From Arcobacter nitrofigilis DSM 7299 (GTDB taxonomy: Bacteria > Campylobacterota > Campylobacteria > Campylobacterales > Arcobacteraceae), in contig NC_014166.1 in NCBI RefSeq assembly GCF_000092245.1, positions 1,116,001 through 1,180,000 of the forward strand: a DNA stretch of 64,000 bases, read 5' to 3'. Position 1 is the first letter of the stretch, and every line of letters begins with the position of its first letter. Below the pieces are notes generated by a model, which saw only the letters and a list, made by a program, of their open reading frames with translations, was not told the origin of the DNA and ran no database searches. Shown one piece after another: positions 27,585 to 38,073 of the stretch. A program made the translations under genes and the position numbers.

Positions 27585-28436
27585 TTGACCTATGTAGTGC
27601 CAAATTATTTTATTGAAAACAAATATAAAAACCTTTTAAAAATAGATGATTTATTGTGTTTAAATTATATTACTAAAACACAAAACTCCAATGTATATGC
27701 TAGAACAACAATGCATAGTATGGGTATAGTACTTGAAGGTTCAAAAGTTATTCATCTAAGTAATGAAGATATCAATATACAAAAAACAGATATATTTTTT
27801 CTTACTCAAAATAATTATTATATGAGTGAAAGATTGGTTAATGATTCTAAATACAAGTCTTTAATAGTATATTTTGATGATAAATTTATTTTTGATTTTT
27901 TAAATAAATATAATATTCAAATCAATACAAAAGATGAAGAGAGTACCGTAAAGGCAAGTTATAAAAGTGATAAATTATTTGAAAATAGTGTGCAAACTTT
28001 TCAAGAATATTTAAAAGCCGATTTCAATGAAAATCTTTTAAAACTTAAAATTGAAGAGCTATTTCTACAAGCAATAAAACATAATGAAAAGCAAATGTAC
28101 TCTTTTTTTAACTCAATTTTAGCTACAAGTCAAGATAGAATCAAGTATATACTAGAATCAAACATTGACCTTATCCAAACCCTTGATGATATGTGTAGAA
28201 TCACAAGATTATCAGAAAATAAAATCAGAAGATATATTAAAAAAGAGTTTAACCAAACTCCAAAAATATGGCTTGATACAAAAAGATTAGAAAAAGCAGT
28301 TTTACTTTTAACTACTACAAATAAAAGTATCTCAGATATATCTACAACTTGTGGATACTCTACTGCATCATGGTTTATTTCCCAATTTAAGAAATATTAT
28401 AAGCAAACACCTAAAGAATTCCGACATAAAATCTAA
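27585..28436 (+). CDS. AraC-family regulator, paralogue B
   Basis: 283 residues from TTG 27585, with AAGGA about ten bases upstream. The sequence follows the regulator at 18539-19393 along its whole length: VVLEGSKVIHLSNED-type sensory half, then ILESNIDLIQTLDDMCRITRLS in parts and a second helix-turn-helix ISDISTTCGYSTASWFISQFKK. It therefore arose from the same duplication history. It lies 15 bp after the epimerase-like gene and may end that unit. Unlike paralogue A, its last codons (QTPKEFRHKI) are not repeated in the window. Confidence 0.9.
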   Translation: MTYVVPNYFIENKYKNLLKIDDLLCLNYITKTQNSNVYARTTMHSMGIVLEGSKVIHLSNEDINIQKTDIFFLTQNNYYMSERLVNDSKYKSLIVYFDDKFIFDFLNKYNIQINTKDEESTVKASYKSDKLFENSVQTFQEYLKADFNENLLKLKIEELFLQAIKHNEKQMYSFFNSILATSQDRIKYILESNIDLIQTLDDMCRITRLSENKIRRYIKKEFNQTPKIWLDTKRLEKAVLLLTTTNKSISDISTTCGYSTASWFISQFKKYYKQTPKEFRHKI

Positions 28437-28501
28437 GATTTCTTGTACATATATATTTTAAACTTTTGTAAAATACTTATAGATTTACAAAAAGGAAGAG
28501 T

Positions 28502-29026
28502 ATGAAAAAAATATGTATAGGATTAATCTTTAGTGTTGGTTTGTTATTTGCCCAAGGTTTTACTTTAAGTAGTGATGATATACAAGGACAACTTTCAAAT
28601 GAACAAGTTTTTAATGGCTTTGGTTGTACAGGGAAAAATATCTCTCCAGAACTTTCTTGGAAAGATGCACCTAAAGGAACAAAATCTTTTGCAATAACTG
28701 CTTATGATCCTGATGCTCCAACAGGAAGTGGTTGGTGGCATTGGGTAGTTTTTAATATTCCAAAAGATAAAACAAGTTTAGAAAAGGGTTTTGGAAATAA
28801 AGAGTATTCAAATATCATTCAAAGTGTGACTGACTATGGTAAAACTGGCTTTGGTGGTGCTTGTCCTCCCGTTGGAGATAAGGCTCATAGATACATTTTT
28901 ACAGTGTATGCTTTAGATATAGATAAACTTGATTTAAATAAAAATGCATCAGCAGCTTTAGTTGGATATATGATTAATGCCCATGCCATAGAAAAATCAT
29001 CAATTATTGCTTATTCTGGGAGATAA
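28502..29026 (+). CDS. Exported YbhB/YbcL-like PEBP family protein
   Basis: 174 residues with a signal peptide (MKKICIGLIFSVGLLFAQG), so probably periplasmic. The PEBP core shows NISPELSWKDAPKGTKSFAI in part, YDPDAPTGSGWWHWVVFNIP, the pocket-forming D-x-D-A-P and H, and GGACPPVGDKAHRYIFTVYALD. Bacterial members bind small anionic ligands; their role is unclear. The gene stops 3 bp before the methyltransferase gene and both are likely one transcript. AAGGAAG precedes the ATG. Confidence 0.92.
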   Translation: MKKICIGLIFSVGLLFAQGFTLSSDDIQGQLSNEQVFNGFGCTGKNISPELSWKDAPKGTKSFAITAYDPDAPTGSGWWHWVVFNIPKDKTSLEKGFGNKEYSNIIQSVTDYGKTGFGGACPPVGDKAHRYIFTVYALDIDKLDLNKNASAALVGYMINAHAIEKSSIIAYSGR

Positions 29027-29029
29027 TAT

Positions 29030-29779
29030 ATGAAAGAATCAAACAGTTGGAATGCAAACAAATATAAAAAACATGCAAATTTTGTATCAGATTTGGCATT
29101 AGGAGTAGTAGAATTACTAAATCCAAAAGAGGGCGAGAAAATTTTGGATTTAGGTTGTGGTGAGGGAACTTTGGCTTTAGAGATAAAAAAATCAAAAGCT
29201 GAAGTTATTGGTATAGATTTAAGTGAAGATATGGTTGAAAAAACAAAATCTAAAGGAATAATAGCAAGTGTTGGAAGTGCTACTGATTTGGATTTTGAAA
29301 ATGAGTTTGATGCAGTTTTCTCAAATGCAGTATTGCATTGGGTAAAGAATAGTGAACTTGCAATTGATAAGATAAATAAAGCATTAAAAAAAGAGGGTAG
29401 ATTTGTAGCTGAATTTGGTGGCTATGGAAATATTAAGAGTCTAACCGATGCTATGGAAGAAGTTTTTGATAAGAATCCTTCCTGGGGAGAGTTTAATAAT
29501 CCTTGGACTTTTTTAAGTGATACAGAGTATAAAACGCTTTTGGAAAATAATGGCTTCATAGTAGAATATATAGAACTAATACCAAGACCAACACCAATTG
29601 ATGATATCACAAATTGGTTAGATATATTTGCAAATGGTATAACAAAAAATTTAAAAGATGAGCAAAAAGTATTATTTAAAGAAGAAGTAAAAGAGATATT
29701 AAAACCAAAACTATATAAGGAAAAAGATGCTTGGATTGCTGATTATGTAAGATTAAGAGTTAAGGCTATTAAGAAGTAA
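29030..29779 (+). CDS. Class I SAM-dependent methyltransferase
   Basis: 249 residues. Motif I ILDLGCGEGTLALEI at about 37-51, motif II IGIDLSEDMVEK, and the post-I segment FDAVFSNAVLHWV, which is characteristic of the Tam/BioC-like group. The C-terminal half (PRPTPIDDITNWLDIFA) also resembles Tam, which methylates trans-aconitate; other carboxylic acids are possible. Cytosolic. It follows the PEBP gene by 3 bp and ends in a strong palindrome at a convergent junction. Confidence 0.88.
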   Translation: MKESNSWNANKYKKHANFVSDLALGVVELLNPKEGEKILDLGCGEGTLALEIKKSKAEVIGIDLSEDMVEKTKSKGIIASVGSATDLDFENEFDAVFSNAVLHWVKNSELAIDKINKALKKEGRFVAEFGGYGNIKSLTDAMEEVFDKNPSWGEFNNPWTFLSDTEYKTLLENNGFIVEYIELIPRPTPIDDITNWLDIFANGITKNLKDEQKVLFKEEVKEILKPKLYKEKDAWIADYVRLRVKAIKK

Positions 29780-29794
29780 ATAGTATTTACTTCT
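29772..29794. terminator. Short-loop hairpin at a convergent junction
   Basis: Perfect 10-bp arms agaagtaaat and atttacttct with a 3-base loop cover the methyltransferase stop codon and reach the stop of the convergent Sel1/LprI gene. Probable bidirectional terminator, without a long T tract. Confidence 0.5.
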
Positions 29795-31019
29795 AATAGG
29801 TCAATATTAGTTTTAATTGATTTGTTCTTTGCTTAGTTAAATATGCTTCCCAATTTTCTTTTTTTGAAGAGGGATTTATTGCTAAAAAGAGTTTAGTATT
29901 AGCATCTCTATATTTTATCCAAATCCTTTGAACAGTTCTTATATTATCAAAGGTTATTGGATATGACATTGTATATTCTATACTTGATTTTTTGAGTTTT
30001 TTTAGAACTTTTTTGTATGTTTCATTTAATTTTTTGTCATAATACTTTAAAGAATACTTTAACTTTGGAGTAAAACCTTTTTGTACTTTTTTTAGTAGTT
30101 TTAAATATTCGTTTTTTTGTTTAGTTTCTGAATTTATTAGAAAACTAGCTCTTCCTGAGCCTCCATGTCCTTCTTCTAAAATAGCCTTTTTTTCGATAAA
30201 TTTATTTGTATATTTTAAAGCATCATTAAGTAATGTTTGATTTTCTTTTGCAAGTGTATTTCTAAATTGTTTTATCTCTTTTGCTCTTTTTATTTGTTGT
30301 TTTTCTTCCTCTTTTTTTGCACAATATCTCATGCCCATACCACTTGTAATAAAATTGCACAAGTCAAATTTAGCAATACCTTTTTGCCAATTTTTATATG
30401 TGGCTTTTACTGCTTCCTCATATTCTGCTGGTACATTTCCTCCCCTTACAACCAAATCAAAAACAAGTTTTGCATTGGCTTTTCCAAATCTTCCATTTTT
30501 TGCTGCTTCTTGGGCTAGTTCCCATATGAAATAAGGTGAAGAGTCTGTATTTTTTATATTGTATTTTTTTATAAATGCTTTTGCATCAAAATCACTAGAT
30601 TTTACTGCTAATTTTAGGGTCTCTAATTTATTTTTTTCATCATATAATTTTATATTTGGATTACTCTTTTTAGCTTGTTTATATACTTCTAAAGCTTTTT
30701 TAGGATTTGCAAGTTCTAAACTATTTGCTCTAAAAAGCAAATCATCCAAAGCATAAGCTAATGCTTTTTCATGACCTTTTATTGCAGCTTGTGTAAAGTG
30801 ATAAATGGATTGTTCTTTTGTAAGTACATATTTATATGCTAGAGCAAAATGAGCTTTGGCATCTCCTTTTTTTGCAGCTTCTTCATATAATTTTTTTGCT
30901 TGTAATGTTTTGCCTGATTTATAAAGATTGTCTGCTTTTGATAGGAGGTCTGTTTCATTTTCTGCAAAACAAAAGTTCAATGAGAAAAATATCAAAATAA
31001 GTAGGCTTAAAAGTTTCAT
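29793..31019 (-). CDS. Exported Sel1-repeat protein with a C-terminal LprI-like (DUF1311) region
   Basis: 408 residues. Signal peptide MKLLSLLILIFFSLNFCFA. Residues about 25-130 hold Sel1/TPR-like repeats (KLYEEAAKKGDAKAHFALAYKY, HFTQAAIKGHEKALAYAL). A middle helical region (130-290) includes CNFITSGMGMRYCAKKEEE. The C-terminal 100 residues (LNETYKKVLKKLKK, then IRTVQRIWIKYRDANTKLF) match the pattern of DUF1311/LprI, a family named for lysozyme inhibition. Expected periplasmic. The gene lies downstream of nothing on its strand and stands alone. Confidence 0.78.
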   Translation of the reverse strand: MKLLSLLILIFFSLNFCFAENETDLLSKADNLYKSGKTLQAKKLYEEAAKKGDAKAHFALAYKYVLTKEQSIYHFTQAAIKGHEKALAYALDDLLFRANSLELANPKKALEVYKQAKKSNPNIKLYDEKNKLETLKLAVKSSDFDAKAFIKKYNIKNTDSSPYFIWELAQEAAKNGRFGKANAKLVFDLVVRGGNVPAEYEEAVKATYKNWQKGIAKFDLCNFITSGMGMRYCAKKEEEKQQIKRAKEIKQFRNTLAKENQTLLNDALKYTNKFIEKKAILEEGHGGSGRASFLINSETKQKNEYLKLLKKVQKGFTPKLKYSLKYYDKKLNETYKKVLKKLKKSSIEYTMSYPITFDNIRTVQRIWIKYRDANTKLFLAINPSSKKENWEAYLTKQRTNQLKLILTY

Positions 31020-31073
31020 TATAATTATTCTTTTTAATGATTATATAGTAAGTTTATTAAATAGAGTTTTAGG

Positions 31074-31100
31074 TAACTAGTAGGAAAATCCTACCAGTTA
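31074..31100 (-). terminator. Hairpin at the end of the oxygenase-like operon
   Basis: Forward-strand arms taact-a-gtagga and tcctac-c-agtta (31074-31085, 31089-31100) pair with one mismatch around a 3-base loop and cover the stop codon of the PhnD-like gene. T tract weak; probable terminator. Confidence 0.45.
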
Positions 31101-31918
31101 TTTTTCATTAAATCTTGTTCTTTCATAGCAGTTGTTAAAACATCGTAACCTTTTAGCTCTTCTTGTCCTGTTTTAACCCATTTATTTAGACCTTCCATTT
31201 GCATCATTTTTTTGATGATTGGCTCATTTGGGTCTTGTGCTAATAACATTTCTGTAAATGTTTTTTGGATAGATTCATCTAAAGTATCAATTACTGTAAA
31301 GTTACAATGACAATACCCTTCACTTACATAAAATGATTCTATCTCCCCACTTGGAAACATTCCATCTTCAAGCATTCTAACCCATGAAGTAATCCCAATA
31401 GCACCTGCATCTATTTCATTATTTAAAATAGCATCAAGTATATCAAACTCACTTCTTCCTGTATCTCCATGTTTCCCTAGGTCTGAGTTAAATCTTACGA
31501 TTTCTATATCATCAAAATCTTTAGCTTCATTTTGAAGATATTTAAGTGGTAAAATTGCAGCTTGAGCAGAATCTGCACTTCCAAGGGCAAATTTTCTCCC
31601 CTTTAGGTCATTGATACTTTTAATACCACTACTTGCTTTTGTAATAAATACCGATTTAAAATCAATATCTGTATCTCTCATAAGTAAAGCTTTTGCTCTA
31701 CCTTTACTTAATTCATGGGTTCTAACCCAAGCAACATTTGTATTCCATGCAATATCAATTTTACCTGAAAGTAAGTACTCAATTTGTGCTTCATAGTTTG
31801 AAAAAAGCATATAATCTAGTCTTACACCATTGTCATTAAAATAATCTCTTATAATATCCCAGATTGTTACAATCTTTGGATCATAAGCTACTGATCCTAC
31901 TACTATTGGTTTATCCAT
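31091..31918 (-). CDS. PhnD-like substrate-binding-fold protein without a signal peptide
   Basis: 275 residues of the type used as phosphate/phosphonate ABC receptors: VVGSVAYDPKIVTIWD, DIAWNTNVAWVRTHEL, SINDLKGRKFALGSADSAQ, GAIGITSWVRML and a late helical lobe. It starts directly at the first strand (MDKPIVVGSVAYDP) with AAGGAG at the right distance, so there is no export signal, and no ABC permease or ATPase gene is nearby. A cytosolic binding or carrier protein, or a variant enzyme fold, is therefore likely. Third gene of a unit with a flavoprotein and a ferritin-like protein. Confidence 0.82.
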   Translation of the reverse strand: MDKPIVVGSVAYDPKIVTIWDIIRDYFNDNGVRLDYMLFSNYEAQIEYLLSGKIDIAWNTNVAWVRTHELSKGRAKALLMRDTDIDFKSVFITKASSGIKSINDLKGRKFALGSADSAQAAILPLKYLQNEAKDFDDIEIVRFNSDLGKHGDTGRSEFDILDAILNNEIDAGAIGITSWVRMLEDGMFPSGEIESFYVSEGYCHCNFTVIDTLDESIQKTFTEMLLAQDPNEPIIKKMMQMEGLNKWVKTGQEELKGYDVLTTAMKEQDLMKNNW

Positions 31919-31927
31919 TTTTTCTCC

Positions 31928-33052
31928 TTAAGGAATTGGTTGATTTGTTAAAGCTTTTCCAAGCCAAATTGAAAGTACATCAGTACTAGGTGCCATAATT
32001 TGAGCTGCAAAGGCATCTCTTAATAATCTTTCAATAATTATTCGTTTGGCATAAGCTGTACCACCACCTATTTTCATAGCTTTTGTACAAACTTCAACTG
32101 CAGCTTGTGAAGCATTAACTCTTGCTGATATAATTTGTACCATTGCATCTTCATCACCATTTAATGCACTTTTAGCGGCAGCTAAAGTAAAGTGTTTTGC
32201 TGCTGTTGATTTTGTATAAACTTCAGAGATATGATTTTGAACAGTTGGGATATTACATAAAGCACTCTCATCACTATATTTTCTATTCATAGAGTAATCA
32301 ATAATAGTATTAGAAGCATTAAGTGCAACACCAGTATAAACAGCACTTAATCCTAAGATAAAGAATGGTGCAACAGTATTAAATATTTGCTCACCAGCTG
32401 TTGTAGCTTCACCAACTCTATTTTTTTCAGAAATTTTTACATTTTCTAAAACCATTGGCATAGAAGCATTTCCTCTCATACCAAGTCCATTCCAGCTTGA
32501 TTCTTGAAAAGTAACACCTTCACTTGCAGGAACTATCCAGTTATCAAGTCCTTCTCCATCGGGACTATTTGAATCAAGTAAATAATAATCAGCGTATAAA
32601 GCAGATGTAACAAAACTTTTTCTTCCATTCATAATCAAACCATCATCTGTTCTTGTAACTTTTATTTCTGGAAGATAAAAGTGTGTACCTGTTCCTGATT
32701 CACTATATGCAAGGGCTAAAAGTATTTCACCATTTGCAATTTTTGGAAGAAGTTCATTTTTCATCTCTTCACTTCCATGTGTTGCAATACAATTTGTTGC
32801 AACATTGTGCATCATATAACATAAAGCAGTTGTAGCACAACTAGAAGCAAATGCCAATACAGTTTGTGCATGATCTTCTATATTAAGCCCCATACCTCCA
32901 TACTCTTTTGGTACAAGTAAACCTGTAAGCTTCTCTTTTTTGATTGCTGCAAAACTATCTACTGGATATTTTGCATCGGCATCTACCGCATCAGTATAAG
33001 GTGCGATATTTTGCTTGGCAAAATCTAACATTTCATTATATATATTACTCAT
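31928..33052 (-). CDS. Acyl-CoA-dehydrogenase-fold flavoprotein, possibly a monooxygenase
   Basis: 374 residues, normal length for the family. KEKLTGLLVPKEYGGMGLN in part, LALAYSESGTGTHFYLPEIKV and the C-terminal AMKIGGGTAYAKRIIIERLLRDA segment mark the ACAD fold. Near the position where true dehydrogenases usually have a catalytic Glu (YEGT-like), this protein reads IMAPSTDVL, without Glu. Together with the ferritin-like partner this favours a DszC/SfnC-like flavin oxygenase or another non-dehydrogenase activity over fatty-acid oxidation. It lies 8 bp after the ferritin-like gene and 9 bp before the PhnD-like gene. Confidence 0.85.
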   Translation of the reverse strand: MSNIYNEMLDFAKQNIAPYTDAVDADAKYPVDSFAAIKKEKLTGLLVPKEYGGMGLNIEDHAQTVLAFASSCATTALCYMMHNVATNCIATHGSEEMKNELLPKIANGEILLALAYSESGTGTHFYLPEIKVTRTDDGLIMNGRKSFVTSALYADYYLLDSNSPDGEGLDNWIVPASEGVTFQESSWNGLGMRGNASMPMVLENVKISEKNRVGEATTAGEQIFNTVAPFFILGLSAVYTGVALNASNTIIDYSMNRKYSDESALCNIPTVQNHISEVYTKSTAAKHFTLAAAKSALNGDEDAMVQIISARVNASQAAVEVCTKAMKIGGGTAYAKRIIIERLLRDAFAAQIMAPSTDVLSIWLGKALTNQPIP

Positions 33053-33060
33053 TTATTTTC

Positions 33061-34311
33061 CTACATAAAATTTGGTGTGTGTACATTGGAAATATCATTG
33101 GCTAACTCTTCATCCATTCCAATATCTATTAATCTTTTGATTCTATTTGTATTCATCGTAGCTTTTAACTCTTCTACTAAATCAAAACCTCTTTTATAAT
33201 CAACTGGGGAATCACTTCCTCCTGCTAAAATGGCCAAAGATTCTAAAAGTATAGATGACTCAGAACTCACTTCATCCATAAACTCTTTTCTTCTAAAAGC
33301 TGTATTTTTTAAAGCATTTATTCTTTTTGGATTTTGTTGTATTGCTGATTTAACATGCTCCATTCCATATGCTACATGTCTTATTTCATCTCTTTTTGAA
33401 AGCTTTATTATTTTTCTTGTCGTTTCATCTGGCATATGTTTTTCCAAAAAACTTAAAAGGTCTATAAAAGTACCTTCTCCCATTACATGAAGTAAAAAAG
33501 AACTTTTTATATAATCATCTTCTTTGAAAAGAGAGTATAAGGAACGTTGGGTTATTTCACTAGAATATTGAAATCCTCCTCCATTTGCATTGGCTCTTTT
33601 TGTAAAAACTTCAATATGTCTGGCTTCATCATTCATCAATGAAGATAAAAATAGAGGTACTTCCATATAGTATGGATTTATTTTACTAATAAACTTTCCT
33701 GGGATATATAAAGCCGAAAATTCATTTTCAACTAAATAAGTCATGATTTGGCAAACTGCTTTTTCAATTATTGGATTTAATGTTGGTATTTCATTCCATG
33801 CAATATCACTTGTGGCATTCCATTGTGCATGTTTTCCCTCTTCATATAAAGCAGATACTGGTTCTGACCAAACTTGCTCTTTATGTGATAGTTCAAAGTC
33901 ATAGAATGGAGTTCCATCTTGGGGTTCAATACCTCTTGTCATAAGTCCATTTGAATCAGGAGCTTTTTTTAGAATCTCATCTGTTAATTCTAAATCTTTT
34001 AATTTAGGATTAGAAGAATCAATTCCTTTCATTTTTTTACCCCAAGAAGATTTATTAGCAAAAGAACTCTTATTTATCTTTTGAATTTTGTATGAGTATT
34101 GTTCTTTCAAGCTTTCACGACCCAAATAGAGATGACCTCTAAGTTTTGCCCAACCTCGAAGTTCTATTTCGATGTTTGGTTTAAAAGAGACTATTTCGAT
34201 AATCTCACTAGTATTTGCTATTAAGAAAGTATTTTCAAGTTTAAGAAAAAGTTCTTTAGAAGGTGGCATATTACCAATTGGTATAGATATTGAATGATTT
34301 AAAGTATGCAA
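33061..34311 (-). CDS. TusA-like domain fused to a ferritin-like diiron domain
   Basis: 416 residues from TTG 34311, which has GGAG six bases upstream; a TTG at 34323 is in frame but lacks a ribosome site. Residues about 5-75 resemble the TusA sulfur-carrier fold (IPIGNMPPSKELFLKLENT in part, EIIEIVSFKPNIEIEL, WAKLRGHLYLG), but the active CP Cys is Pro. A linker leads to a helical ferritin-like domain (about 150-400) with carboxylate motifs NEFSALY, DEARHIEVF, GEGTFIDLL and RDEIRHVAYG, enough ligands for a diiron site. First gene of a three-gene unit. The function is not known to me; oxygen-dependent chemistry is inferred. Confidence 0.75.
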   Translation of the reverse strand: MHTLNHSISIPIGNMPPSKELFLKLENTFLIANTSEIIEIVSFKPNIEIELRGWAKLRGHLYLGRESLKEQYSYKIQKINKSSFANKSSWGKKMKGIDSSNPKLKDLELTDEILKKAPDSNGLMTRGIEPQDGTPFYDFELSHKEQVWSEPVSALYEEGKHAQWNATSDIAWNEIPTLNPIIEKAVCQIMTYLVENEFSALYIPGKFISKINPYYMEVPLFLSSLMNDEARHIEVFTKRANANGGGFQYSSEITQRSLYSLFKEDDYIKSSFLLHVMGEGTFIDLLSFLEKHMPDETTRKIIKLSKRDEIRHVAYGMEHVKSAIQQNPKRINALKNTAFRRKEFMDEVSSESSILLESLAILAGGSDSPVDYKRGFDLVEELKATMNTNRIKRLIDIGMDEELANDISNVHTPNFM

Positions 34312-34320
34312 AAGAATCTC

Positions 34321-34380
34321 CAAAATTGTACTTAATTTTGGTCCATCTTATAATTATGATGGAATCTCAGCCTGAGACCT
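34321..34380 (-). promoter_or_regulatory. Structured leader or operator region of the oxygenase-like operon
   Basis: On the forward strand: arms caaaatt/aattttg (34321-34327, 34334-34340), tccatc/gatgga (34342-34347, 34358-34363), the perfect inverted repeat TCTCAG-C-CTGAGA (34365-34377), and ggtc/gacc (34340-34343, 34376-34379) that could enclose the last two. On the transcribed strand it contains CTGAGA, recalling the thi-box, but the rest of a TPP riboswitch is missing. It may be an operator plus attenuator, or an unrecognised RNA. Confidence 0.45.
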
Positions 34381-34575
34381 GAATTTTGTAATTCTAGCAG
34401 AAGATAATACAAAAAAGATTAAAAAGTAAAAATTTTTTTACTATTTTCTAAAAGTTCATTAATTTTGTTACTTAATTATATATAAAGAAAAGAAAGTAAT
34501 CTTAATGATTATTTAAGTAAAATAATATATAAATATAATTACTTATTTAAAGTGTATTGTGATATTGGGAGTCTT

Positions 34576-36525
34576 ATGGATAAGAAAAAAAAGAGTGATT
34601 ACGAGTTAGATAAATTAATTGATATTAACTCTTTTAAACAAATTTTAGATAATTTTTTTAAGGCAACAGAAATACCCAATGGACTTGTAGATAATAATGG
34701 AAAGATAATTACTCAATCTGGTTGGAGTGATGCTTGTAATAATTTTCATAGAAAACATACTGATTCAAATAAGTTTTGTGTAGAAAGTAATATATCGTTA
34801 ATGGAAAGTTTATCAAAAAACTCTATTTCAAAAAATGAATGTAAAAATGGCTTGATAGATTATGTAGCACCAGTTATTATAGATAATGAAATTATTGCAT
34901 CACTGTTTTTAGGTCAAGTTTTTAATAAATCCCCAGATTTAAACTATTTTATTTCTCAAGCAGAAAAATATAATTATGATAAAACTAGTTATATTGATGC
35001 TATAAAAAAAATACCAATAGTAACAGATGAAAAAATGAGTTCTTTAATGCTTTGTATTGTTCACATAATTGATGTTTTAGTATTTGGTAGTTTGTCAAAA
35101 CAAAGGGAAGATAAATTAGAACAAAATTTAATAAAGACCAATGAACAAAGTGTTGAGTTACAAGATATTTTGGATTTTTCTCCTTTAGGGATTGGCTGGA
35201 CAAATAAAAATGGTGAAGTAGAGTATGTAAATCACAAGTTTACACAACTTTTTGGATATACCATTGAAGATATACCAACATTAAACGTGTGGTTTAAAAA
35301 AGCTTTTCCAAATGAACAATATAGGGAAAATCTTATTCTTCCTTGGAATAATAAAGTTATAAATTCATATAAAGAAAAAAAACAACCACCAGAATTAGAA
35401 GCAACTATTAGATGCAAGAATGGCACTAATCGTAGAGCATTGGTTCGATTATCATGGGTTGGAGAGAAAAGATTAAGCAATTTTAGTGATATTACAAATC
35501 ATTGGAAAAATGAACTAAGAAATCGTAGTCATGATAATATGTTAGAAATGGTAGCAAAGGGTGTTAATTTAAAAGATATTCTTCATGATATTATTAAAAC
35601 AATCGAATTGGAAGATGATACCTCTATGTGTAGTATTTTGATTTTAGATGATGATGGAAAACATTTGTCAATTGGAGCTTCTCCTTCTCTTCCAACTTTT
35701 TATAATCAAGCAATTGATGGAGTTGAAATAGGAATTGGCGTAGGGTCTTGTGGGACAGCTGCCTTTCTTAAAAAGCGTATAATTGTTGAAGATATAATGG
35801 AACATGAATATTGGAAAAATTATTTAAAATTAGCAATAAAAGCTAATATAAAATCTTGTTGGTCAGAACCTATTCTATCATCTGATGGTCAAGTTTTAGG
35901 AACATTTGCTATTTATCATAATCAAATATCTTCCCCTAAAAAAGAAGATTTTGAACGTATAAGTTTTGCAACAAATTTAGCTTCAATAGCAATTGAGAAT
36001 AGAAAAGTTAGAAAAGAATTGGAGTTTAGAGCTTACTTTGATTTTTTAACAGGTTTACCAAATAGAAGATATTTTATAGAGCAATCAGAGTTAGAAATAT
36101 CTAGAAAACTTAGATATGGTGGTAGTTTGTCTTTAATAATGTTTGATATTGATCATTTTAAAATATTAAATGATAAATTTGGGCATAAAATGGGTGATCT
36201 AGTACTTCAAAAGATTGCAGAAATTACGCGTAGTGTTTTAAGAGATATCGATATAATAGGACGTATTGGAGGAGAAGAGTTTGCAATTTTATTACCTCGA
36301 ACAGATATTAAAGAAGCTGAAAATATAGCTGAACGTCTACGCCTTGAAATTTCAAAAGGAATTGTCAAGACAGATAAAGTAGAAATTACTAACTTTACTG
36401 CTTCTTTTGGAGTTGTTTTAGATACAAAAAATAAAACTATAGATGAACTATTAGTTTCCGCAGATAATGCTTTATATGAAGCAAAAAATAGTGGACGAAA
36501 TAGAGTTTGTATTTTTAATAAATAA
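34576..36525 (+). CDS. PocR-PAS-GAF diguanylate cyclase
   Basis: 649 residues from ATG 34576 with GGGAG just upstream (a GTG at 34552 is in frame). Domains: PocR-type sensor (about 15-175) with VDNNGKIITQSGW, HRKHTDSNKFC and a second Cys in NECKNG; PAS (195-310, LDFSPLGIGWTNKNGEVEYVN in part); GAF (325-480, IGVGSCGTAAFLKKRIIVED in part); GGDEF (495-649) with FDIDHFKILNDKFGH and intact GGEEF. The RxxD inhibitory site is present as RDID, so feedback by c-di-GMP is expected, unlike the cyclase at 8353. No spans, so cytosolic. PocR domains bind small hydrocarbon derivatives such as diols. Divergent from the oxygenase-like operon. Confidence 0.92.
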   Translation: MDKKKKSDYELDKLIDINSFKQILDNFFKATEIPNGLVDNNGKIITQSGWSDACNNFHRKHTDSNKFCVESNISLMESLSKNSISKNECKNGLIDYVAPVIIDNEIIASLFLGQVFNKSPDLNYFISQAEKYNYDKTSYIDAIKKIPIVTDEKMSSLMLCIVHIIDVLVFGSLSKQREDKLEQNLIKTNEQSVELQDILDFSPLGIGWTNKNGEVEYVNHKFTQLFGYTIEDIPTLNVWFKKAFPNEQYRENLILPWNNKVINSYKEKKQPPELEATIRCKNGTNRRALVRLSWVGEKRLSNFSDITNHWKNELRNRSHDNMLEMVAKGVNLKDILHDIIKTIELEDDTSMCSILILDDDGKHLSIGASPSLPTFYNQAIDGVEIGIGVGSCGTAAFLKKRIIVEDIMEHEYWKNYLKLAIKANIKSCWSEPILSSDGQVLGTFAIYHNQISSPKKEDFERISFATNLASIAIENRKVRKELEFRAYFDFLTGLPNRRYFIEQSELEISRKLRYGGSLSLIMFDIDHFKILNDKFGHKMGDLVLQKIAEITRSVLRDIDIIGRIGGEEFAILLPRTDIKEAENIAERLRLEISKGIVKTDKVEITNFTASFGVVLDTKNKTIDELLVSADNALYEAKNSGRNRVCIFNK

Positions 36526-36600
36526 GTTTAAAATCCTAGACTATGTTGACTTTATACATTATTTAGATAAAATAATTACATAAAAACATTAGGAAATAAT

Positions 36601-38073
36601 ATGAAAAGTTTACATTTAGTTGTATTTGTATTATTTATACTACTGTTCACTGCTTGCGATGATAAGAAAAAAAACTCTAATGAAATATTAAAATATAAAA
36701 ATAAAACTATAGTAATTATTGCTCCTAATTTTGATAAAGCAATTACAGGTCCTATAAGAAAAGAGATTAAAGAATTTGAAGATAGAACTGGTGCAAAGGT
36801 AAGAGTTGTATCCCCTAGCTGGGATGATATGATTGGAAAAATAAAAGAGTCTTTTACTGATAAAAAAATAAATTATGATGTGTTTGTTGTTTTTTCATCA
36901 TGGGGTGGTTCTTTGTTGGGAAATGGACATGCTGCAGAAATTCCTGAGTGGGTTAAAAAAGAGATAGAGTGGGATGATATTTTGCCCATATATAAAAATC
37001 AAGTGCTCTCTTGGAATAAAAAATATTATTTCCTTCCTTATGATGGAGATTGTATTAATTTATATTATAGAAAAGATATTTTTGAAAATGAAGAGTATAA
37101 AAAACGATTTAAAAATGAGTATGGATATGATTTAGATATTCCAAAAACTTGGGCAGAGTATAAAGATATAGCAAAATTTTTTAATGGTTGGGATTGGGAC
37201 AATGATGGTAAGATTGAATATGGCTTTGCTGAAAGTAGAAAAAAGGGTTATGGGACAATGTTTGAATTTTTTGCAAGAGCTGCTGCTTATGCAAAATATC
37301 CAGATAAAAAAGAGTTTTATTTTGATTCAAATATGAATCCTAAGATAAATAATCCAGCTTTTCTAAAAGCACTAACAGAATATATAAATATTATGAAATA
37401 TGCACCTCCTCAAGTTACAAATTTTGAGCCAGCAGATGTAAGACAAAGTTTTATTGGAGGAGATGTTGCTATGATTTTGGATTGGGCAGATGCAGGTGCA
37501 ATGGCTCAAAATTCAAAGGAAAGTATTGTCAAAAATAAAGTCGGATATGCAAAACTTCCAGGTTCAAATAGTGTTTATAATAGTTATACAAAAAATTGGG
37601 ATGTAAGGTATAATAATCCCTCTTCCATAAGTGGAAATTGGGTAATAGTTGTAAATAAAGATGCAGTTAATAAAGAATTAGCATTTAAATTCGCTGCATA
37701 TATGACATCTAAAAAAATGACATCAAAATATGTACCTATAGGTTCAAGTGGTATAAATCCTTCTAGATATTCACATCTTCAAACAACTAATCTAGAACTT
37801 TGGGAAAGAAATGACTTCTCAAAAGAATCTGCAAAAGAGTATTTAGATGTAATATCTAAGTCTTTAAGTAATAAAAACTCAGTTGTAGATATTAGAATTC
37901 CTGGAGCAGACTTGTATTATGCCACTTTTAATAAATATTTAAATAAAGCAATTAAAAAAGAGATAACTCCAAAAGAAGCACTTGATTTGACAGCTAAAAA
38001 GTGGAATGAAATTACTAAAAAACTTGGACTTGAAGAACAAATAAAACTTTATAAGGAATCTTTAAATGAGTGA
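36601..38073 (+). CDS. Extracellular solute-binding lipoprotein (family 1)
   Basis: 490 residues. Signal peptide with lipobox LLFTAC (acylated Cys19), so probably anchored in a membrane. The mature part is a sugar-type binding protein: KTIVIIAPNFDKA, EFEDRTGAKVRVVSPSWDDM, YFLPYDGDCINLYYRKDIF, PKTWAEYKDIAKFF and WVIVVNKDAVNKELAFKFAAYM. A dockerin-like DWDNDGKIEYG loop near 198 could bind Ca2+. No permease or ATPase gene is adjacent; instead it overlaps a histidine kinase gene by 8 bp, suggesting that it serves as a ligand receptor for the kinase rather than for transport. Confidence 0.88.
   Translation: MKSLHLVVFVLFILLFTACDDKKKNSNEILKYKNKTIVIIAPNFDKAITGPIRKEIKEFEDRTGAKVRVVSPSWDDMIGKIKESFTDKKINYDVFVVFSSWGGSLLGNGHAAEIPEWVKKEIEWDDILPIYKNQVLSWNKKYYFLPYDGDCINLYYRKDIFENEEYKKRFKNEYGYDLDIPKTWAEYKDIAKFFNGWDWDNDGKIEYGFAESRKKGYGTMFEFFARAAAYAKYPDKKEFYFDSNMNPKINNPAFLKALTEYINIMKYAPPQVTNFEPADVRQSFIGGDVAMILDWADAGAMAQNSKESIVKNKVGYAKLPGSNSVYNSYTKNWDVRYNNPSSISGNWVIVVNKDAVNKELAFKFAAYMTSKKMTSKYVPIGSSGINPSRYSHLQTTNLELWERNDFSKESAKEYLDVISKSLSNKNSVVDIRIPGADLYYATFNKYLNKAIKKEITPKEALDLTAKKWNEITKKLGLEEQIKLYKESLNE

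Follow-up and report, generated by a model that had tools for sequence, protein, structure and literature searches.

The window analysed here, a stretch of 64,000 nucleotides from Arcobacter nitrofigilis DSM 7299 (contig NC_014166.1, positions 1,116,001 to 1,180,000), contains a three-gene operon (31091-34311) encoding a fusion of a TusA-like and a diiron-type domain (fer), an acyl-CoA dehydrogenase (ACAD)-fold flavoprotein (fad) and a PhnD-like protein that carries no export signal (sbp). The operon is strongly conserved in order among Campylobacterota and is preceded by a structured leader RNA. With somewhat less than even confidence, we propose that fer and fad together use O2 to tailor or cleave a small metabolite, probably a sulfur-linked one, which would be presented by sbp, and that the leader controls this system.

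Conservation and layout of the operon

In a sample of 298 Campylobacterota genomes fer was found in 34 and sbp in 39, and every one of the 34 fer genomes also contains sbp. The order fer-fad-sbp was seen in all 40 fer-encoding loci checked, as far as each locus reaches (sbp lies beyond the end in a few short ones). These loci come from several families of the phylum, the identity of fer between them goes down to about 45%, and the genes flanking the operon differ from locus to locus. The linkage is therefore far beyond chance and the operon is strongly conserved; an earlier note on this DNA had allowed that the three genes might be found apart in most genomes, and they are found together. Many relatives lack the operon, and in two of them (G186 and G089) the leader RNA is left as an orphan near the middle of the locus (L061 and L123, respectively); in L123 the first fer codons are still readable before the break. 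One fer copy from an Arcobacter metagenome-assembled genome (L038:6762-6841) is interrupted by what looks like a frameshift, which may be a sequencing error.

In the window the three open reading frames (ORFs) follow each other with intergenic gaps of 8 and 9 bp, just as the earlier note had read them (Table 1). The listed ORF of fer reaches 34323 via another in-frame TTG upstream; the start used here is the TTG at 34311, and a TTG is present at the equivalent position in other Arcobacteraceae copies. The divergent neighbour of fer (34552-36525) encodes a PocR-PAS-GAF-GGDEF sensor protein, which was not seen next to the operon in any other locus that was read.

Table 1. Features of the operon and its leader in the window
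Feature	Position	Strand	Description
fer	33061-34311	-	TusA-like N-domain (~residues 1-80) and ferritin-like diiron oxygenase-type domain; TTG start
fad	31928-33052	-	ACAD-fold flavoprotein, Rv1679/FadE16-like; MCAD-type catalytic Glu replaced (MAPS)
sbp	31091-31918	-	Leaderless PhnD-like protein, Rv1680-like; invariant H204-C205 at ligand-cap position
Leader hairpin P1	34363-34379	-	GGTCTC-AGGCT-GAGATT; covarying stem, conserved loop AGGNU
Leader hairpin P2	34343-34362	-	CCATC...GATGG; covarying stem
Leader hairpin P3	34320-34341	-	CCAAAATT...AATTTTGG; pairs GG of Shine-Dalgarno GGAG (34318-34321)
Likely -10 box TAGAAT	34391-34396	-	Read from sequence; similar boxes in relatives

Fold classes and active-site motifs of the three proteins

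The N-terminal part of fer has the TusA fold. Although this domain stays under Pfam detection in the window protein, that of the orthologue L109 passes PF01206 (29.5 bits, cut-off 28.6), and the AlphaFold2 model of the window protein aligns with E. coli TusA (3lvj_C) at a TM score of 0.77 by target length. Alignment with the E. coli protein places a Pro at the position of the sulfur-carrying Cys, in agreement with the earlier note. The domain may serve for docking.

In the second domain the motif E195/E197, E229xxH232, E279 and E309xxH312 is invariant in 23 orthologues, with E229K as the single exception; these are the four carboxylate/His motifs of the earlier note. The E229K copy (L015, Helicobacteraceae) has a Lys at a metal-ligand position, possibly a sequencing error. 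Two ExxH motifs and two further Glu on four helices are the signature of ferritin-like diiron oxygenases. The model, built with 23 sequences, has a mean pLDDT of 65 and falls below 50 across residues 198-252, around helix 2. Its nearest solved structures are aldehyde-deformylating oxygenases (ADO; Z 14-16, best 16.1) and VlmB (Z 15.2), and the structural score of R2lox is lower (Z about 11). The metal site suggested in the earlier note is thus plausible by conservation and fold class, despite the low confidence of the model near helix 2, and an O2-activating diiron enzyme with predicted metal binding would be the natural reading of fer.

Cyanobacterial ADO and VlmB, the best structural neighbours, share with fer the ferritin-like fold, the two ExxH motifs and further Glu. 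They differ from it in sequence (about 10-18% identity), in lacking the TusA-like domain and in their operon partners, and we saw no sign of fatty-aldehyde or hydrazine chemistry for fer. R2lox has weak sequence similarity to fer around helix 2, but with 33 bits it is far below the cut-off of 194. Since the azoxy synthase VlmB and also AurF are among the fold and profile matches, the operon might serve the biosynthesis of an N-O, N-N or otherwise modified small molecule, with sbp carrying the intermediate; the radical S-adenosylmethionine (SAM) protein near actinobacterial homologues and the glycosyltransferase in Miltoncostaea (see below) would fit this idea. The operon, however, contains no carrier protein, ligase or nonribosomal peptide synthetase gene and is kept in small genomes of 1.5-2 Mb, which is more like primary metabolism, and we consider such a biosynthetic role improbable.

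The second protein, fad, matches PF02771, PF02770 and PF00441, all above the Pfam cut-offs, and has the ACAD fold. At the position of the MCAD-type catalytic Glu the motif YEGT is changed to MAPS, and all 14 homologues compared, from Campylobacterota and Actinomycetota, share Met-Ala-Pro; at the IVD-type base position, no conserved acid was seen in that helix, as judged by eye. The earlier description as an ACAD-fold protein lacking an obvious catalytic Glu is borne out. Because the MCAD-type Glu is replaced and Met-Ala-Pro is invariant, fad is probably not a simple acyl-CoA dehydrogenase. Other ACAD-fold enzymes without the catalytic base act as flavin oxidases or monooxygenases, and by analogy fad may be a partner of this type.

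The third protein, sbp, matches PF12974 (PhnD-like, 1.8e-29) and is also similar to the NMT1/THI5-like family PF09084 (6e-11) and to the SsuA family. A signal peptide is not visible, the protein beginning at the mature fold, and no transporter permease or ATPase is present among the annotated flanking ORFs (27585-38073), so that the characterization of sbp in the earlier note stands. Phosphite is bound in Prochlorococcus PhnD by Y46, S126, T127, S128, H158 and D205 under the cap residue Y206 (PMC5700983). The aligned residues of sbp are Y42, S117, A118, Q119, S156 or E157, H204 and C205. Thus Y42 and S117 are kept in common with the PhnD/PtxB fold family, but the Thr, the second Ser and the His are lost, the anion motif Ser-Thr-Ser/His becoming Ser-Ala-Gln/(Ser or Glu), and the Asp-Tyr at the ligand cap is replaced by His-Cys, which is invariant in 14 sbp homologues. 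Since most of the anion motif is lost and His-Cys is found at the cap, a phosphonate or phosphite ligand is unlikely, and so is a role of sbp as phosphonate carrier; the residues H204-C205 argue for a catalytic or covalent function. The earlier note had suggested an oxygen-dependent step on a sulfur- or phosphorus-bearing molecule held by cytosolic carriers. A cytosolic protein without transporter fits this suggestion, while its phosphorus part is weakened by the lost anion motif.

The similarity of sbp to THI5-like proteins might be taken as a sign of an O2-dependent replacement of ThiC, that is, of aerobic synthesis of the thiamin pyrimidine. ThiC is, however, encoded in 34 of 34 fer genomes and no thiamin pyrophosphate (TPP) riboswitch precedes the operon. 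Since no fer genome lacks ThiC, we reject a thiamin bypass and regard this explanation as extremely improbable.

A further reading concerns the oxidation or detoxification of organosulfur compounds or thiols, in which sulfur would be scavenged from an organic thiol, sulfinate or sulfonate. The DszC and SfnB families, ACAD-fold families of organosulfur use, are among the weaker NCBIfam matches of fad, and the SsuA similarity of sbp as well as the TusA, OsmC and DoxX partners would be consistent with it; yet genes for a flavin reductase, for transport or for sulfur starvation are missing from the operon, and the anion motif of sbp is lost. This makes the organosulfur reading unlikely in our view.

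Partner genes and the possible substrate

The pair of fad and sbp is the constant unit, whereas the partners vary. All five genomes with sbp but without fer have fad-sbp followed by core MetE-like and OsmC-like genes. The core MetE-like genes (L101-L105, e.g. L102:6999-8165) belong to a family found in none of the remaining genomes of the sample; one of the five, in G256, carries stop codons. The family retains the putative Zn ligands (H255, C257, E291, C355) and homocysteine residues, assigned by comparison with MetE, and in G140 it provides the only methionine synthase detected, with no other MetE or MetH. It may represent a further family of folate-independent methionine synthases.

These sister operons raise the possibility of an O2-dependent methyl or one-carbon route tied to methionine, in which fer would take the place of the core methionine-synthase-like enzyme. 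The one-carbon unit released by ADO-type enzymes is formate, which would suit such a route, as would the occurrence of the core enzyme, with its Zn and homocysteine residues, in exactly those sbp genomes that have no fer. MesD, a core MetE-type enzyme that requires its partner MesX and oxygen (PMC7857596), is comparable to the core MetE found in the sister operons, but that enzyme is not encoded in the window and no DUF1852 protein was seen. Furthermore, fer is homologous neither to MetE nor, by Pfam, to DUF1852, and MetE or MetH is already present in every fer genome, which leads us to reject a replacement of methionine synthase there. A methionine-linked route is rather doubtful. An exchange of O2-dependent fer for O2-independent core MetE was likewise considered and found unsupported, terminal oxidases being present in both groups.

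In the actinobacteria Mycolicibacterium, Rhodococcus and Miltoncostaea, the fad-sbp pair is located after or near a gene for a DoxX-like membrane protein. A radical-SAM protein of the Rv1681 family is also encoded close by in two of the three, Mycolicibacterium and Miltoncostaea (the Rhodococcus stretch ends soon after sbp), and the Miltoncostaea locus has a glycosyltransferase gene in addition. The window has the TusA-diiron fusion and the RNA leader instead. The surroundings of the Mycolicibacterium pair (L044:3908-5306) also contain deiodinase-like and glutaredoxin-type (mycoredoxin / Uxx-star-like) genes. In Paracoccus, a relative of core MetE has a TusA-like domain at its N-terminus; its gene is clustered with those for TusA, DsrE, a SufS-type desulfurase, SelA and TrxB; on a Paracoccus ferrooxidans plasmid this fusion is found at L119:7641-9122. 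No viral relatives of sbp or core MetE were found in IMG/VR.

Together, the partner associations point to sulfur or one-carbon chemistry. Hints of sulfur are the TusA domain of fer, the core MetE and OsmC partners, and the Paracoccus TusA-core MetE fusion beside SufS, TusA and DsrE. A link to selenium was suggested by selA genes close to the homologues of Miltoncostaea and Paracoccus and, in a single Campylobacterota genome (G132), within some 10 kb. It was rejected as uninformative, since almost all genomes of the phylum sample encode SelA and the gene is otherwise far from the operon when both are on one contig.

The reading that we prefer is a cytosolic, O2-dependent enzyme set for one small metabolite. 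In it, sbp would be a retired binding protein of an ATP-binding cassette (ABC) transporter that presents or processes the substrate in its Cys-His pocket, fad would act as a base-less flavin-dependent partner, and fer, as an ADO/VlmB-like diiron oxygenase, would carry out the oxidative cleavage or tailoring step on a compound whose substrate or product form is probably sulfur-linked. Several points speak against this proposal. The Cys of the TusA CPxP motif, which carries the sulfur, is absent in all fer copies examined. The fold matches of fer come from a model with the modest mean pLDDT given above, and for helical bundles a Z score near 15 is only modestly over background. The substrate class is an inference in which partner genes support the sulfur idea indirectly, and the Paracoccus plasmids, on which no sbp was found, are connected to the operon through the MetE-like family only. 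Finally, the terminal oxidases of the five core MetE genomes do not support a simple swap governed by O2.

The structured leader and the place of the operon among known families

Upstream of fer we identified a structured leader (34318-34379), which the earlier note did not mention. The 5´ untranslated region from the likely -10 box would consist almost wholly of this leader. In Arcobacteraceae it is about 60-80 nucleotides long, starts about 12 nucleotides past the -10 box and contains the hairpins P1, P2 and P3, of which P3 covers the Shine-Dalgarno GG, was recognised by eye in most members of the family and lies outside the counted structure. P1 and P2 show compensatory changes: their covariation was 0.244 compared to 0.119 in shuffles (0 of 500 shuffles reach it), and pairing was 97.9%, compared to at most 48% in slid controls. 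In Helicobacteraceae, a P1 hairpin is found at the same place with 100% pairing and a covariation of 0.400 compared to 0.164 when shuffled (0 of 500). Since sequence kinship inflates the shuffle test, more weight belongs to the slid controls and to the independence of the stem types. The Helicobacteraceae loop is mostly CGUGU or a close variant and is followed by a variable second hairpin; AGGGU is found in one species there and also in one genome of another family (f7, L025). No such P1 hairpin was seen in the f6 genome and in L041. From position and loop, the hairpins of both families may be one homologous element.

The leader precedes the operon in Arcobacteraceae and in most operon-bearing Helicobacteraceae. 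All strong matches to the leader models of both forms precede this operon, lie at contig ends or are orphans in genomes that lost the operon. A wider regulon was rejected, because the inspected weak matches without operon (E > 0.01) look like chance. Comparison with the covariance models of Rfam 15, including TPP and other known riboswitches, gave no match. A survey of GC-rich intergenic regions in Arcobacter sp. L left several Arcobacter-confined motifs unnamed (PMC6429828), and the leader might be among them. The straightforward reading is a cis-acting leader that would control translation initiation, perhaps in response to the product or substrate of the pathway; a protein or temperature might also be the signal.

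Also absent from the earlier note was the relation of fad and sbp to the Mycobacterium genes Rv1678-Rv1679(FadE16)-Rv1680-Rv1681 (NF049984-NF049986, NF049973). The best NCBI families are Rv1679 for fad (NF049984; 275 bits, E 1e-81) and Rv1680 for sbp (NF049985; 334 bits, E 7.7e-100), both below their cut-offs of 600 and 400 bits, and the two genes are likewise adjacent and in the same order. Papers on the function of Rv1678-Rv1681 were not found in the literature searched, outside of which most subscription papers lie. Nor does the same literature appear to describe the TusA-diiron fusion operon, its leader RNA or its alternative sets of partners. The earlier statement that no pathway with this gene set has been described therefore holds there, but fad and sbp are close to NCBI families that already have names, though no assigned function, and for this reason we consider the system a variant near known families and not wholly new.

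Possibly, a former ABC binding protein has been turned into an enzyme or covalent carrier with a His-Cys pocket, combined with interchangeable partner modules (TusA-diiron oxygenase, core MetE/OsmC, DoxX plus radical SAM) and, in Campylobacterota, with a new class of metabolite-sensing leader RNA; this wider picture is speculative and we hold it with low confidence. The operon gives the unexplained M. tuberculosis pair Rv1679-Rv1680 a compact three-gene counterpart in relatives of Arcobacter and Helicobacter, and its partners and regulatory RNA are handles for finding the substrate. In addition, it provides a candidate for a new structured leader RNA whose one clear target is this operon and, in sbp, a case of a transport-protein fold that has apparently been turned to metabolism.

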